Source of the DNA: a virus
DNA: 36,378 nucleotides
Virus record (IMG/VR): IMGVR_UViG_3300042511_000052
Location: 1-36,378 of that record
Reading direction: 5' to 3' (one strand)
Part shown: piece by piece, positions 16,559 to 31,500 of the stretch
Position numbering within the stretch: the first letter of the stretch is position 1
How the letters are laid out: every line of letters starts with the position of its first letter
The notes under the pieces: model-generated
The model's database searches: none
The model's input: only the letters and a program-made list of their open reading frames with translations
What the model was told of the DNA's origin: nothing
Made by a program: the position numbers and the translations under genes

Positions 16559-16945
16559 TCATTCCATCCGCTTCACGCCAAAGCCAACGTCCCGCATGAT
16601 TTCCGCAGCCCGTTCTGGTGACATCCGTTCACGCGGTTCTGGCTTATGCGCTATGCCGCGCTGCTTCATTTCCAGCACCTTAGACGCCGATGCAACGCCA
16701 TCCATCTCAACCCTACACCGAGCCACGATGTCGCCCTCTAGCGGGCGTTTTCGGCGGTCTGCGTTGGCATCAGACTTCCACCAGCGCACAGCCCTTTCGA
16801 TAGCCCACTGAGGGAAATCCTTTAGAGAGTAAAACCAATCCTGCGCTTCCATCTTCTTGACGACCTCTGGGGTGTTTTTATCATAGTATGGGTTGAGCAG
16901 CGCAGAGACCCTAACTAAGATCCAAACCCCATCCGCCGGCGTCAT
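16559..16945 (-). CDS. Putative replication accessory / helicase-loader-like protein
   Basis: From the ATG at 16945 the protein is about 128 residues, with ADGVWILVRVSALLNPYY, EAQDWFYSLKDFPQWAIERA and DRRKRPLEGDIVARCRVEM. The pattern of a tryptophan-rich helical domain followed by a P-x-x-GDI-x-x-R turn is common in small proteins next to the replication initiator in alphaproteobacterial phages. The frame stays open upstream to 17164, but that would overlap the replication gene by 254 bases, so the short form is chosen with reserve. Confidence 0.55.
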   Translation of the reverse strand: MTPADGVWILVRVSALLNPYYDKNTPEVVKKMEAQDWFYSLKDFPQWAIERAVRWWKSDANADRRKRPLEGDIVARCRVEMDGVASASKVLEMKQRGIAHKPEPRERMSPERAAEIMRDVGFGVKRME

Positions 16946-17663
16946 TAACGTCTTCTGGATTCTCAGCACGGTATTTTTCTCGGGCAACGATGTCGGCAGC
17001 CACTGAGGCGAACGCCGCAGCCATGCCAGACCTTTGTCCACTTTTTCCTCTGTCAGCGGTTCTATATTTCCGCGCATTGCCAAGCCATGTCCGCCAGGCG
17101 GCGTCCCAGTCTCTAAAGCGGTTTTGCTTAGAGCGGTGGAAGTTTCCAAATCGGTCTGCTTCATCTTCGATCTCCTGTGCTGTGAAACCGCGATCTATCG
17201 CGTCTTGAACATTCTTGTCGCTTGGTATCCACCCCTCTGGCAGATCCATTTCAGGCTTGCGTTGCTTGGGTGCTTTTGGGCCCAATACTTCTTCTGGTTT
17301 AGTATCTGTGTTTACATCTGGTATAGGTTTGCCCTCAGTGGCAACTTCATTTGCCTTGCAGGGCAAATGGTCTTGTCCTGATGGGCAAAACCATTTTGTC
17401 CTATCGTATGCAGATTTGTTGTAGGACCCAGATAGGATCATGCCATCGGCCTCAAGACGTTCTAGCGATGTCCTGATCTGCTTAGGAGTCATGTAAGGGA
17501 AAAGTTCAGACCACGCCCTGACACTGTTATATGTCCAGTTGTGATCATCGTGTTCATTGTGGCCGTTGGCTGCGTTCTTAGCGCACCACCACACTATGTT
17601 TTGGTAAAGCACAGCGGCATGGATGCCCACCCTCTGCGCTATGTCTGGATCGAAGCTATGCAT
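16911..17663 (-). CDS. Putative replication initiator / replisome organiser
   Basis: The 250-residue protein begins with a winged-helix-like region (SFDPDIAQRVGIHAAVLYQN, then YMTPKQIRTSLERLEADGMI), has a charged linker, and ends in a small domain WIPSDKNVQDAIDRGFT...FGNFHRSKQNRFRDWDAAWRTWLGNA. This two-part layout is typical of phage replisome organisers that bind the origin and load helicase. No helicase or polymerase is visible elsewhere in the window, so replication must use host enzymes. AAGGAG lies before the start. Confidence 0.7.
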   Translation of the reverse strand: MHSFDPDIAQRVGIHAAVLYQNIVWWCAKNAANGHNEHDDHNWTYNSVRAWSELFPYMTPKQIRTSLERLEADGMILSGSYNKSAYDRTKWFCPSGQDHLPCKANEVATEGKPIPDVNTDTKPEEVLGPKAPKQRKPEMDLPEGWIPSDKNVQDAIDRGFTAQEIEDEADRFGNFHRSKQNRFRDWDAAWRTWLGNARKYRTADRGKSGQRSGMAAAFASVAADIVAREKYRAENPEDVNDAGGWGLDLS

Positions 17664-17822
17664 TTCGGCACTCCTTAATGTTGTGGAGACGCCAATCGCA
17701 GTGTAGAACCACGATCAGCGCATCTGGTTCATGCGCTTGCCGAGATCAGCGGACTTCTCACCCGCTGCGGCTTACTAGGGCTGGTCGAGCGTTGCAGCGC
17801 TCCCAGCCCATTTTTTTACACC
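17664..17822 (+). ncRNA. Possible plus-strand small RNA or structured leader
   Basis: This gap has no coding sequence but three perfect stems on the plus strand: AGCGCAT/ATGCGCT (17717-17737), CAGCGG/CCGCTG (17747-17767) and the terminator hairpin at 17778-17809, followed by seven T. A plus-strand transcript ending here would be antisense to the 5' leader of the replication gene. No convincing promoter was found. Read on the minus strand, the same stems would form a structured leader for the replication gene, and a 17-codon frame MGWERCNARPALVSRSG starts there. Confidence 0.4.
17778..17817 (+). terminator. Strong rho-independent terminator on the plus strand
   Basis: GGGCTGG...CCAGCCC encloses an inner GAGCG/CGCTC stem with a TTGCAG loop, 12 base pairs in all with a two-base bulge, followed by A and seven T at 17811-17817. 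The orientation is opposite to the flanking genes, since no plus-strand gene lies upstream. Confidence 0.7.
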
Positions 17823-17847
17823 TTATTCAAAAACGAATAAAGCGTTT

Positions 17848-18204
17848 TCACGTAACTCGAAGATTTAAGCCCATGGCGATGGCGACTGCATATCTGACCT
17901 CAAAGTCGCGAGTCCACATCCCCTTGGCATCCTCCAGCACCTCTATGTTATCCTCGACATAGGCAAAGTCCACTGTCAGTCTCATCTTGCGCCCTGTGCG
18001 TGTGTACATGGGTCTGTACTGACCGATCAGGTCGATCTTGACCTGTCGACGTAGGTTGCTGATTTCCCCAGCCCGTTCCAGCAGCTGCAACTCCATGTAG
18101 CGCTGCGCTTCCTTCTTGCTGTCGAAGGTGATCTCACCAACCTGTGTTTTCTTTGCGCCATACTTGTTCCGAGTCTTACGGGCGAAACTGGGTTGTATTT
18201 TCAT
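17848..18204 (-). CDS. DUF1064-family nuclease-like protein
   Basis: The 118-residue form starts MKIQPSFARKTRNKYGAKK. NKYGAKKTQVGEITFDSKKEAQRY, a central RRQVKIDL, VDFAYVED and EDAKGMWTRDFEVRY match the DUF1064 family (PF06356), a PD-(D/E)xK-like fold found in many phages. It may act on recombination or replication intermediates. Upstream ATGs at 18213 or 18279 overlap the repressor gene and are less likely. Confidence 0.8.
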   Translation of the reverse strand: MKIQPSFARKTRNKYGAKKTQVGEITFDSKKEAQRYMELQLLERAGEISNLRRQVKIDLIGQYRPMYTRTGRKMRLTVDFAYVEDNIEVLEDAKGMWTRDFEVRYAVAIAMGLNLRVT

Positions 18205-18403
18205 GCCATCCATCCGCTGAAACGATTTGGCGGGTGGCGAACTCCACCAGCTTGCGTGACAGCCTATCTGGCACAACAACGCCAGACAACCATCTTGATA
18301 GTTGGCTATTCGTCACGCCAATATAGGCTGCAAACTCTTTTTTCTTCATGCCTTCAGCCTTGATGTGCTGGGCTAGTGCGATGCGTGATGATGTTTTTTC
18401 CAT
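18176..18403 (-). CDS. Cro/XRE-type repressor
   Basis: The 75-residue protein from ATG 18403 has a helix-turn-helix, MKKKEFAAYIGVTNSQLSRWLSG, of the Cro/CI XRE type, and a short tail. It is the first leftward gene and lies next to the divergent control region, where a Cro-like autoregulator would bind. No CI-sized partner is visible, arguing against a standard lysogeny switch. An earlier ATG at 18418 would add MQNAY. Confidence 0.78.
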   Translation of the reverse strand: MEKTSSRIALAQHIKAEGMKKKEFAAYIGVTNSQLSRWLSGVVVPDRLSRKLVEFATRQIVSADGWHENTTQFRP

Positions 18404-25506: not shown

Positions 25507-28365
25507 TTACGAAATGCGGTAAACAGTGTAGGTATTTGTAGCGGTCTTGCGGAACCGCAATAGTCCAGACGTTCCAGTTGCAACAGTCATGGTCCCCACC
25601 AAGGTCAGGCTGGTTGCCGTGCCGATAGTTAGCAATGCGGCCCCCGTGTTGATGAAGGACACATCGAAAGACATATCTGTCGGGAATGTAGCTGGTAGGC
25701 CACCTTCGATTAGCGTGCCTGTTGGCAAGGTTAGCGTAGCGGCAGCACCCGTGTATTGGATGATGCCAGTGAGAAGTTCTGCGATGGTCAGGGTTGCCGC
25801 CGCAGCCTTTGATGTCTGTGCTGGCTGTGCTTGATAGACAACACCAGTAGTCATTGATGCGCCAGTGACATGGAGTTTGGTTACGGGGGCGGTATTGCCA
25901 ACCCCCAAGTTCCCACTTACGTCAAGCGTCATGGCTTGGGTGAAGGTGATCGCAGTACCAGCCGTGCCAGAGGGGGCGTTGAACCAGCGATGCTCACCAG
26001 CGGATGATTGGTAGGTCGTGGCGGCACCAGTGTTGGCGTATTTAAACGCCGTGTCATAGTAGGTGTTTGATCCAACGTATAAGCTGTTCGCAGTGCTACC
26101 CCAAATGTGGTTCCCCGTTCCGCCAACCGACAAAGATTTACCAGCTCCCCAAGCTGCTGGCGTAACCCCAATCCCCACGTTGCCAGAGGTGTCGATACGC
26201 ATACGCTCTGTGCCGCTTGACGAGTTTACAGTAGCGCCCGTGGAGAAAAGAAGTGAACCCGTGTTGTTTAATATGGCGGCAGTCTGTCCCGCTGTGGCAT
26301 TACTCAGCATCAAACGAGAGGACAAAACGCTGTTGCCTAAGTCCTGCGAGAGGTTAAGGCCGTTGACGCCAGATGCAGAGATAGTCACCAGAGTATCTGG
26401 GCTGCTCGTCCCAATCCCCACGTTGCCAGAGGCGTTGATACGCATACGTTCGGCGGCGGCACCATAATCGTAGGTCACAAGAGCATTTGCAGAGCCAACA
26501 TAAAACCCGAAATGATTGGTGCTATACTTCAAGCGAGTGCTTGCAACGCCCGATCCAGCAGCCGCAACCTCATTTGTGGTTATAGCCGCATTTGCATTGT
26601 AGATTTGTAGGTTACTTGTGGGCGAACTCGTGCCAATGCCCACGCTGCCAGTGCTGTCGATACGCATACGTTCTGTGCCAGTCAACGTAGTGGTATTCGC
26701 GGCAGTGCTAAACACAATAGAAGTTGCAGCGTTCATGGTGGAAACGCCGCCACCTATATCAACCTTATTATCGGTTGCTGCGGATCTCAGAAGCATACCA
26801 GAAAACGGCTCTTCTGCGTTTGTATAGTGTCCGCCACCAACTACACCGTTTTTGGTTGTGGCATCCGTGGTTACGTCTTGAATGCGAAATTGTCCCGCAA
26901 GGCCGCTTGCAACTATGTGAACGCGAGCCGCAGGAGAACTCGTCCCAACCCCCAAGTCCCCGTCCGCATCAATACGCATACTTTCGTTTGCGCCGTTGGA
27001 CCTCAAAAATATCAGTTGTCCAGTGTTTACTTGGAGACTTAGGTTTGCACTCCCCCCAGAATAAATTGTGCGATTGGTGGTGCCTAGATAGATATTGCCT
27101 TCCACTTGCAATTTATCAGCGGGAGAATTCGTCCCAATTCCCACGTTACCCAACTCGTTAATCCGCATACGCTCAGTAAGCGCACTGCCCGTCTGGAAAA
27201 CCAGAGTCCCAGCAGAACTGTCATTGGTTGCACCGATAGTAAAAGTTCCTAGCGACCCGTTTGTCGACATGATGGCGCGAGTAGCTCCAGCAGAACCAAT
27301 TTGAAATGTTTTGTCTCCGCCCGAAACGCCGCCTATTTGCAAGTTTGCGGTGGGCGAACTCGTCCCAATCCCTACGTTGCCGGAGGCGTCGATACGCATG
27401 CGCTCTGTAGAGGCCGTGGCGAGAGCAATGACACCCGCTGAACCCGAAGCGTTGATTGTGTGAAGTGCGCCCACAGAGCCTACGGTGGTGGAACTGGTGA
27501 ACCTCAAGGCCCTGTTGTTCGTGGCGTCGTCTCCCCCAACGCGCATGTACTCGCCGTTCGCACCAAGAGCTACTTCCAGCTTTGCAGCGGGGGCCGTTGT
27601 CCCGATCCCCACGTTGCCAGAGGCGTCGATACGCATACGCTCCGAACCGCCAGTGCCGAAATAAACTAGGCTACCGCCTATGGAGAGGGGTTGAAAGCTG
27701 CCGATAAGAGTGGAGTCTACACCTTGTATAGAAGACTGCGTTGCGTTGTGAGAAACCCTAATTCCTTTTGTCGTTCCACTTAGGCCAAGGCTGTAGTTTG
27801 GGTCTGTCGCCCTGCAAACAAGTCTCGCATTAGCGGAACTCGTCCCAATGCCCACGTTGCCCGCAGAGGTGATACGCATAGCTTCAACGCCAGCCGTAGC
27901 CACAGCCACTGTATCCGCAGCGGGGAAGAATAGGCCCGCATCAAGGTCGCCCGTGTTGGTGATTGATGGTGCGGCGGCTGTGCCGTCTGCGAAGGAGGCT
28001 TGGCCTGTAAATGCGGGGTCAGCAGACGGAGCGGCACCAAGATTTGTGCGGGCTGTCGCTGCGTTAGATGCGCCTGTGCCACCATCTGCAACGGCTAGGT
28101 CGGTGATGCCTGTAATCGTGCCGCCGTTGATCGTGGCTGATGTGATGGTCAAAGCAGCTACGGTATTCCCCGTCAAAGCCGCATTCAGGCTCGCGTCAGA
28201 TACGTTGGCTAGATCAGCCCGCGCCGCTTGCACACCGCCAGCCGTTACGCCGTCATGCACATGAACCGACTTGTTCGTCGTGTTAACACTGATCTCACCA
28301 TCTGCACCTGTGAAGCTGGTGTGCTGTGTGGATGTCCCACGGCGGCGCTGAACTTGTTTTGTCAT
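25507..28365 (-). CDS. Long tail fibre / receptor-binding protein
   Basis: The 952-residue protein starts QVQRRRGTSTQHTSFTGADG, a match to the Mtd N-terminal domain that attaches to the virion. It then has nine repeats of a GNVGIGTSSP-type motif, often preceded by ERMRID. The repeats suggest an elongated beta-structured shaft. The C-terminal 110 residues form a Thr/Leu-rich beta region (ATLTLPTGTLIEGG, SFINTGAALLTIG). The S74 chaperone domain that usually ends such repeat fibres is not seen. Likely decides host range. Confidence 0.83.
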   Translation of the reverse strand: MTKQVQRRRGTSTQHTSFTGADGEISVNTTNKSVHVHDGVTAGGVQAARADLANVSDASLNAALTGNTVAALTITSATINGGTITGITDLAVADGGTGASNAATARTNLGAAPSADPAFTGQASFADGTAAAPSITNTGDLDAGLFFPAADTVAVATAGVEAMRITSAGNVGIGTSSANARLVCRATDPNYSLGLSGTTKGIRVSHNATQSSIQGVDSTLIGSFQPLSIGGSLVYFGTGGSERMRIDASGNVGIGTTAPAAKLEVALGANGEYMRVGGDDATNNRALRFTSSTTVGSVGALHTINASGSAGVIALATASTERMRIDASGNVGIGTSSPTANLQIGGVSGGDKTFQIGSAGATRAIMSTNGSLGTFTIGATNDSSAGTLVFQTGSALTERMRINELGNVGIGTNSPADKLQVEGNIYLGTTNRTIYSGGSANLSLQVNTGQLIFLRSNGANESMRIDADGDLGVGTSSPAARVHIVASGLAGQFRIQDVTTDATTKNGVVGGGHYTNAEEPFSGMLLRSAATDNKVDIGGGVSTMNAATSIVFSTAANTTTLTGTERMRIDSTGSVGIGTSSPTSNLQIYNANAAITTNEVAAAGSGVASTRLKYSTNHFGFYVGSANALVTYDYGAAAERMRINASGNVGIGTSSPDTLVTISASGVNGLNLSQDLGNSVLSSRLMLSNATAGQTAAILNNTGSLLFSTGATVNSSSGTERMRIDTSGNVGIGVTPAAWGAGKSLSVGGTGNHIWGSTANSLYVGSNTYYDTAFKYANTGAATTYQSSAGEHRWFNAPSGTAGTAITFTQAMTLDVSGNLGVGNTAPVTKLHVTGASMTTGVVYQAQPAQTSKAAAATLTIAELLTGIIQYTGAAATLTLPTGTLIEGGLPATFPTDMSFDVSFINTGAALLTIGTATSLTLVGTMTVATGTSGLLRFRKTATNTYTVYRIS
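26160..27890 (-). repeat. GIGT/ERMRID repeats in the fibre gene
   Basis: About eight imperfect copies of a 45-50 base unit encoding ERMRIDxSGNVGIGTSSP lie 190-310 bases apart, near 26165, 26405, 26627, 26936, 27122, 27357, 27599 and 27840. The segments between them differ in sequence. Repeats like this can recombine and change fibre length. Confidence 0.7.
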
Positions 28366-28587: not shown

Positions 28588-31500
28588 CTTAGGACAAACC
28601 CCTCTAAACGGTCCACAAGCCTAGTGTTCAGCGAGACGCGAATCCATAGCCTCTGATTGCCAGACCAGCGGGTTATCGGCACAACGTGTGCCTCCCAACC
28701 CCACTGAATGTTTTGCGGCTGGCTGCTGATGTTGGAGCTTAAAGCATAGACGGTTCCATCAGAACCCTCTCTGCCTACAAGAGCCATGAATGTTTCTTTC
28801 GCGCCAGTCCATGCGGAGGAAGCAACTGTCGTTTCGATCCAATACTCGGCGAGTTGGTCCAATACGTTTGAGTTGTTGTCGTCGATCAGCGCTGGCAAGG
28901 TGAAGGTTCCAGTTGCCAGTTCAAGCTGTCTGGAGATGACAGGCCCGTTGAACTCAGCCGAACCATCTTTTTTGATTTGCCAGCCAGTTGAACCAGAGAC
29001 AAACGAAGTCGATTGAATCGTATCGCCAATCTTCGCGTTTGTGATAATGCCATCAGTGATCTGGGCCGATGTCGTGACAACATTATTGGCCGCCAGCGTT
29101 GCCGCCGTGACCGCACCAGCGGCGATCTTGGATGTGATAATCGCTCCAGCCAAAATCTTGTCAGCCGTTATGGCATCTGTGGCAATCTTGTCAGCCGTGA
29201 TGGACCCAGCGGCAATCTTGGCGCTGACAATGGCGTTGGCGACGATCTGATCTGCGTTGACAGCGCCAACCGCGATCTTGCCAGCGATCACGCTGTTGGC
29301 CGCCAGCTTGTCGCTTTCAATGGACCCAGCCGCAATCTTGGCCGCCGTGATGGCGTTGGCGGCGACCTTGTCAGCCGTCACAGCGTTGGCCGCGACTTTA
29401 TCCGCAGAGATCGCGCCAGAGACAATCTTGGCCGCTGTAATCGAGTCAGCAGCAATCTGCGTGGCAGTCACTGCATCAGCCGCGATCTTGGCGGTTGTGA
29501 TGGCTCCCGCGTTGATCTCGGTCGCAGTGACTGCGTTGGCCGCGATCTTGCCAGTTGTAATCGCCCCAGAAGCAATCTCTGTCGCGGTCACAGCGCCAGC
29601 GGCGATCTTGGCAGTCGTAATGGAACCAGACGTGATCTCGGCGGCTGTCACCGCTCCAGCGGCGATCTTTTCGGTTGTGATCGCGTCAGCCGCAATGTTG
29701 ATTGCCTGAACTGCATCAGTGGCTATCTTGCCAGCGGTGACGGCTCCTGCGGCAATGCTGGTGGCAGTTACAGCGCCCGCATCTATTGCCGCTGCCGTTA
29801 CTGCTCCAGCAGAAATCTTTTCAGCCGTCACAGCCCCAGCGGCAAGCGTGCCGACCGTCACGGCACCCGCCGAAATTTTTGCGGTGGTGATGGCACCATC
29901 GCTGATCTTCGTCGCTGTAATGGCGTTAGCCGCCACAACGTCAGCAGTGATCGCCGCCGTTGCGATCTTGGTGGTGGTGACAGCAGCATCGCCGATCTTG
30001 ACGGCTGTGACGGCGGCTGCGGCGATCTTGTCGGCAGTTACAGAGTCAACGCCCAGCTTTGTGGATGTGATAGCTCCGACAGCAACAGCCGCCGCAGTGA
30101 CCGCCTGATTGCCGATCTTTGTCGCGGTGATGGCTGCGTCTGCGATCTGTCCAGAGTTAATCTGCCCTGCAAGATCGGTCGCAGGCACGGCGGCTGTCCA
30201 CGCAGAGCCTGTGTAGCGATACAGCTTGTTGTCGGTCGTCAGGAGGACGACGCGGCCCTGATAAAGATCAATCGACGGCAGCGCGGCGACAACCTCAATC
30301 GGGCGCAGGCCGTTAGAGAACAGTTCCGCCCCAAGCGTGCCGTCGATGTCGGTCGTGCTGACAGCCGTCGTCCACGCGCCGTCAACAAGGCGATACAGCT
30401 TGCCGTCAGTGGTCAGAACAACAATCTGAGGGCCTGTATAGCCCGCCACCGTAGGTAGCGTCGTCACCACCCCGACAGGCTCAATGCCAGCGGCGAAGCT
30501 AGCAAATGTCAGAGAGCCAGCCTCGACCGAAGAAGCCGTGTAGATGTCCGTTGACCAAGACGACGATGCAGCATCCCAGCGGTAGATGGTGATCTCAGGC
30601 AGAAGCAGCACAAGCTGGCCGTCAAAGCCGCCTGTAGCTGGCAGTGACGAAACAGGTTCAACACCAAAAGCACCAGCCTCGCTGAACAGGTCATTCACTG
30701 CCTGATTGAAGTCAGCAGGCGCGATCAAAAGCGTGGTCGAGTTGACAGATGACGTGAATGGAGACTTGTTCAGTGAGAAGTCAACCGCCCTGATCCAGTG
30801 ATAGAGCGTCACGTCATTGGCAAGATTGGCGCGGACAAAGTTTGAGCCGGATGATTGCCCGATCTGCGTGGCGCTGGCCAGATTGTTTGTCGCGCTTTCC
30901 CAGATTTCGCAATATGCGAAATCTTGATCAGCAGGATTGATCCAACGCAATTCTAGATATTTTAGACCAGCCGATGCCGTCAAGTTTGATGGTGTGCTTG
31001 GTGGGGTTGTGTCTCCAACAGATGAGATGGACGAAGAAAGAAAGTTGGACCGAACGCCCATGCTGTTGATGGCGCGGACCCTGATTTGATAGTCATATCC
31101 ATTCAGCACTGGTTGAATGGTGAAACTGTTTGATGTGCCAAGAACAGATGAATATTCAGCATCTGGTGTCAGAATTGGCTCGTTAGTGAGGCCCCAATCC
31201 TCGGTTTCCGTTGCAAAGACGGTAATGCTGCCCCAATCTTCGCTTTCCGTTTGCGCTGCGGCAATGGTTCCATAGTCTTCTTCACCACCAAGTCGCTTGT
31301 ATTGGACTTCGTAATATTGGACAAAACTATCTATAGAAGCTGTCCATGATGCGCGAATGGCAGGAATAGCAATGCCATCGTCATTCAAAACAGTGGTGGC
31401 TGTTAGGACTAAGTTTGACGGCGCTGTAACTGTATTGAAAACAGGCAATGCAGTGTTGTTGCCTATAATTGCAGTTTCGTCGGCATCCCAATCAAAGGCT

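Follow-up and report, generated by a model that had tools for sequence, protein, structure and literature searches.

In plasmids, it is textbook knowledge that antisense RNAs can control replication initiators. Among the described examples, the REx-C module of Pseudomonas plasmids (pPsv48C RepJ/RepA-PFP, ColE2-like) places three stem-loops before rep, the distal one being the proposed terminator of an antisense RNA, with flanking A-stretches and compensatory changes, and the antisense promoter being proposed inside the third; moreover, a short leader gene is coupled to rep, and the module is swapped among unrelated rep genes (PMC5304414). In the IncFII plasmid R1, the CopA/CopT/tap system directs a small antisense RNA against the rep leader and couples rep to a leader peptide (PMC12361487). 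In phages, the small cis-antisense RNAs OOP of lambda and sar of P22 target cII and ant, and the reviewed antisense RNAs OOP, sar and aQ serve lysogeny or regulate antirepressor or late genes (PMC12197685). The put RNA of HK022 is a cis antiterminator that acts on RNA polymerase (PMC9378689).

The window analysed here is the whole stretch of 36,378 bases of an IMG/VR virus record, which carries terminase, portal and tape-measure genes, as well as a large tail fibre gene at 25507-28365 (minus strand) with an N-terminal Major tropism determinant domain (PF18454). For the segment 17664-17822, the original prediction had described a 12-bp GC-rich stem followed by T7 on the plus strand, preceded by two more perfect stems and lying among leftward genes, and had proposed either a small antisense or trans-acting RNA that controls the replication gene, or a leader structure belonging to the opposite strand. 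The convincing genes on both sides are indeed all leftward, with the DUF1064-like gene and the replication initiator both on the minus strand, and a 94-aa ORF on the plus strand (17678-17962) runs across the region. The features of the locus are listed below, helices P1 to P5 being named on the minus strand and P1' to P3' on the plus strand.

16911-17663, minus strand: replication initiation gene (DnaD/O-like; start codon 17661-17663; phrog_11233, E 8.5e-37), the putative controlled gene
17667-17693, minus strand: P5 hairpin, enclosing AAGGAG (17671-17676), the Shine-Dalgarno of rep; the antisense -35 is complementary to its CCACAA loop
17681-17686, plus strand: putative antisense promoter -35, TTGTGG, in the P5 loop; the sense UCCACAA is almost invariant
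17695-17715, minus strand: P4 hairpin, GU-tolerant; the complement of the antisense -10 lies within its apical loop
17704-17709, plus strand: putative antisense promoter -10, TAGAAC, in the P4 loop, with a 17-nt spacer from the -35
17716 to 17818-17819, plus strand: antisense RNA predicted from the fold and the promoter/terminator signals, about 100 nt long (P3', P2', P1' and U-run)
17717-17737, minus/plus strand: P3/P3' hairpin, 7 bp, perfect
17739-17771, minus/plus strand: P2/P2' hairpin, 6+4 bp flanking an asymmetric internal loop
17778-17809, minus/plus strand: P1/P1' hairpin, P1 in the minus-strand leader; on the plus strand, P1' would be the terminator stem of the antisense RNA
17810-17819, plus strand: A T7 A C, the U-tract that would complete the antisense terminator, with T7 at 17811-17817
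17813-17818, minus strand: -10-like element of the leader (rep mRNA) promoter, TAAAAA, 3 nt before P1 and overlapping the antisense U-tract on the plus strand
17836-17841, minus strand: -35-like element of the leader promoter, TTTATT, which is the highest-ranking sigma70-like site but scores weakly in the window itself (p 0.68)
17848-18279, minus strand: DUF1064 / Holliday junction resolvase-like gene (PF06356 and phrog_190), upstream of the leader

Relatives were gathered by searching with the two flanking proteins, and about 40 viral contigs retain the intergenic element. In an alignment of 24 sequences, on which the structure of the window was imposed, five minus-strand helices (P1-P5) are backed by compensatory changes, with 98.9% of the cells paired and 11 pairs showing double changes, a result reached by none of 500 shuffles, and controls with slid partners paired only at 31-42%. 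The covariation sought in the stems of related phages is thus found in P1-P3. A covariance model built from this alignment (R1) retrieves more distant members and, among unrelated DUF1064 contigs, only L076, which has a genuine P1. The leader stays constant while the downstream gene is swapped, translations revealing initiators of the MHSFDP type, others of the MSHYMTAL type and, in L003, a short GIY-YIG-like ORF. P1 itself consists of a GGG.GAGCG/CGCTC.RA.CCC core and a covarying outer stem; across all P1 loci, a GGGA/TC-RA-CC core and its 2-nt RA bulge are invariant and the outer stem and apical loop variable, which suggests that the bulge is recognised by a protein, an RNase or the polymerase. 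Two further ideas about the leader were discarded: neither of the candidate leader peptides of the window (a 17-aa ORF at 17758-17811 and the 5-codon MNQMR ORF at 17715-17732) is kept in relatives, and a ColIb-P9-style pseudoknot between the P2 loop and an arm of P5 showed a mean complementarity of 4.11 against 4.20 with shuffled partners.

A GU pair on one strand is an AC mismatch on the other, so that wobble pairs distinguish the strands. Read on the minus strand in the window family, P1-P3 comprise 1014 Watson-Crick, 2 GU and 8 AC cells despite free sequence change, versus 406, 43 and 4, respectively, in P4-P5 (Fisher 1e-20 for the GU contrast, a nominal value because the cells are not independent). 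The wider family gives the same picture for P1, with 425 Watson-Crick and 3 GU among 428 pairs. The excess of GU over AC in P4 and P5 argues that these helices act as sense leader, which, together with the covariation, bears out the idea of a structured minus-strand leader. The near absence of wobble in P1-P3 points to a constraint to pair on both strands as the simplest reason, with the reservation that inverted repeats acting at the DNA level would yield the same Watson-Crick-only picture.

On the plus strand, the 12-bp GC-rich stem and its T7 are present (17778-17809 and 17811-17817), though with a 2-nt bulge, P1' reading GGGCTGG-TC-GAGCG..CGCTC-CCAGCCC (7+5 bp); because of this bulge, a generic terminator scan made no call at P1' plus T7. 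Regarding the two stems before it, P3' is perfect as claimed, whereas P2', with its asymmetric internal loop, is not strictly so; the P2 loop is purine-rich and Shine-Dalgarno-like on the sense strand and CU-rich on the antisense strand. The segment 17664-17822 folds better than shuffled sequence on both strands (z = -3.8 for the plus and -4.2 for the minus), and the predicted plus-strand RNA (17716-17819, 104 nt) forms three hairpins at -47.4 kcal/mol (z -4.64), equalled by none of 200 shuffles. A distal stem followed by a U-run, terminator-like as a sequence feature only, occurs in the window and in 44 of 59 dereplicated loci; such a run (at least 5 T in 8) lies on the opposite side of P1 in 1/59 and is absent in 9/59.

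Promoter-like signals were found for both strands, their p-values being nominal because the sequences are related. Sense sites are enriched upstream of P1 (58 dereplicated loci; Fisher 1.5e-7, nominal), with T enriched at -33..-31 of the sense promoter region, and the A-rich stretch doubles as sense -10 and as part of the antisense U-run. The plus strand of the P5/P4 loops carries in relatives TTGTGG, then 17-18 nt, and then TATATT, TATGAT, TATCTT, TATGCT or TAGAAC. The best antisense sigma70-like site falls at one fixed offset in 20 of 23 dereplicated loci of the window family (nominal p 9e-18), and 16 of 35 best sites of the wide family group at +28 to +42 after P1 (nominal p 1e-5). Compared with shuffles over 58 loci, the antisense site gives a Fisher value of 5.6e-3, versus 0.89-0.98, that is, no excess, for three controls, of which one took the sense strand at this position, one the antisense strand upstream of P1, and one a stretch lying 350 nt further on. 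The antisense promoter of the window taken alone is weak (p 0.47), and the case rests on the family. A start 7 nt past the antisense -10 would yield an RNA running from the P3' hairpin to P1' and the U-run, which is exactly the wobble-free part. Altogether, the wobble-free P1-P3, the promoter-like motif at a fixed position and the U-run support the small antisense RNA of the original prediction as an inferred product of this segment.

We consider it probable (roughly 0.6), judging from sequence, that a compact RNA module using both strands occupies the segment and places a phage replication initiator under cis-antisense control. This reading builds on a conserved leader, pairing signatures that differ by strand, the position of the promoter-like motif, the U-run, the replication-gene context and the single copy, all of them observed. 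A minus-strand promoter ending just upstream of P1 would give rise to a leader RNA folding into P1-P5, in which P5 would sequester the rep Shine-Dalgarno. A plus-strand promoter in the P5/P4 loops would direct a small RNA, from about 17716 to 17818, complementary to P3, P2 and P1 and terminating at the P1' stem and U-tract. We infer both transcripts, their pairing and the repression: the cis-antisense RNA would bind the nascent leader and lower expression of the replication gene and, as its dose would climb with the number of phage genome copies, negative feedback would result. Since the antisense RNA predicted for the window family does not cover P5, its action on rep would have to be indirect.

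Another possibility, which we hold to be rather unlikely, is that only the minus-strand leader is functional, rep being controlled in translation by the P5 Shine-Dalgarno hairpin, perhaps with a bound protein or ligand, and the plus-strand terminator being a by-product of an A-rich -10 beside a perfect inverted repeat. Such a scheme would agree with the leader covariation and the sense GU pairs of P4/P5, and the A-rich -10 does account for part of the T-run, but it leaves unexplained why GU is avoided in P1-P3 and not in P4-P5, why a -35/-10 pair at 17-18 nt is kept in the unpaired P4/P5 loops, and why the A-richness reaches -2.

The element itself extends well beyond the relatives of the window. 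Scanning IMG/VR with a degenerate P1 core pattern, GGGGAGCGN{3,14}CGCTCRACCCG, retrieved at least 120 viral stretches versus 18 for the reversed pattern, and the outer stem was lengthened by at least 3 pairs in 55 of 63 distinct matches versus 2 of the 18 reversed controls. After P1, most distinct matches carry another hairpin, whose loop is made of purines and resembles a Shine-Dalgarno sequence, often with a start codon after it, and the P1+P2 core is found in more than 50 distinct phage loci. As judged by inspection, 24 of 28 records searched whole hold a single genuine copy, whose neighbours are mostly primosomal proteins, O-like/DnaD-like initiators, primases or DnaB. HNH endonucleases flank the element in a few loci, and HNH or GIY-YIG-like endonuclease ORFs immediately follow it in L149, L173, L200, L203 and L003, an arrangement suggestive of mobile endonucleases having moved in between the element and the replication gene. 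In a group of marine contigs (L132, L141, L161, L164, L167, L195 and L204), P1+P2 occur near the gene of the terminase large subunit (TerL; shown for L132), with neighbours on the opposite strand. Two MAGs labelled Phycisphaerae and Pirellulaceae (L112 and L116) contain close DUF1064 relatives of the phage group (71-74% identity), L112 also having the element; the contigs concerned are probably of phage origin and misassigned during binning. A cultured example is Sulfitobacter phage pCB2047-C (HQ317384.2), where a P1+P2-like element, accompanied by a third hairpin that bears a GGAG loop, occurs at about 29147-29175 on the minus strand, near the replication operon, between the first early gene and an HTH gene and in an orientation opposite to the operon; neither strand of it shows a good promoter. 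No codirectional gene follows the sense RNA in the L132 group, L187, L193 and pCB2047-C.

Searches elsewhere were negative: the P1 pattern occurred in 1 of 385 alphaproteobacterial genomes, no more than its reversed control, Rfam 15 gave no covariance-model score above the gathering threshold, and plasmid BLAST for the element returned nothing beyond a 22-nt chance match. RNA matches in a Pelagibacter phage and in cyanophages were discarded, as they are located in an adjacent ORF, outside the hairpins. A phage-plasmid lifestyle was likewise set aside, ParA not being found in 25 records and integrase being found in 3.

The recurrence of a single copy beside replication genes of differing types, even with no codirectional gene after it, would also suit inverted repeats acting as DNA, either as a replication origin or as single-strand or cruciform hairpins bound by replication proteins, which predicts wobble-free, Watson-Crick-only covariation; we regard this as improbable, given the flanking promoter signals and U-tract, the sense-specific P4/P5, and the Shine-Dalgarno-like P2 loops followed by start codons. 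It is similarly doubtful that the P2'-P1' transcript acts chiefly in trans, as a small RNA that would use its CU-rich P2' loop to bind the ribosome-binding sites of mRNAs from the phage or the host, since in most loci it would be antisense to a replication-gene leader, even if P2' loops are CUCCC-like throughout and, in the L132 group, L193 and pCB2047-C, the transcript would run in the direction of the operon with no leader opposite it.

Under cis-antisense control of the initiator, a variant of the mechanism may be envisaged for part of the wide family. Short leader ORFs (e.g. MPKIYHNRLLPRKVAP, MLSNTRQRTVTQGIVL) begin after the P2 loop in L137, L146, L166, L169, L170, L184, L134, L172, L206, L076, L129 and L130, where their ends overlap the replication-gene start (ATGA or GTGA) and the rep Shine-Dalgarno is placed in a further small hairpin; the overlap reads ATGA in L137, L146, L166, L134, L076, L129 and L130. 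In such loci (e.g. L137, L146, L134, L076, L130), the antisense RNA would mask the ribosome-binding site of the short leader ORF and, by analogy with translational coupling, a leader ORF ending over the rep start (ATGA), with the rep site in a hairpin, would convey the control.

As in antisense-RNA replication control, a structured leader stands directly upstream of the replication initiator in the window, and the wide-family context agrees. The architecture closely resembles that of REx-C in its stem-loops, its predicted promoter and terminator placement, a possibly coupled leader gene and its exchange between rep families; unlike REx-C, the element is located in phages, adjoins phage-type replication genes and has a conserved GGG.GA/UC.RA.CCC core in P1, which shows no sequence similarity to SaL1 of pPsv48C. 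With CopA/CopT/tap it would share a small antisense RNA, predicted here, against a rep leader; the coupling of rep to a leader peptide may be paralleled in several wide-family loci, whereas the leader peptide is absent or vestigial in the window family. OOP and sar are small phage cis-antisense RNAs, as the predicted RNA would be, but their target is not the leader of a replication initiator and no structural or sequence relation was seen. HK022 put also opens a phage transcript with two hairpins, but a put-like antiterminator was rejected, as no HK022 sequence matched the descriptor and a codirectional gene is missing downstream in some loci. The best reading, by analogy, is that the phage element works like REx-C, ColE2 and CopA-CopT, shared descent not being claimed, with no detectable homology.

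We give about even odds to the broader view that these loci represent a class of RNA modules for phage replication control that is widespread and has so far gone undescribed, in which an overlapping sense leader and cis-antisense RNA, single-copy and exchanged between unrelated replication genes, would give phages, mostly with no integrase or ParA detected, a plasmid-like copy-number feedback. If true, many phages would meter the synthesis of their initiators by genome dosage, a ready regulatory part would become available, and the conserved, unannotated gaps that precede phage primases and initiators would be accounted for.
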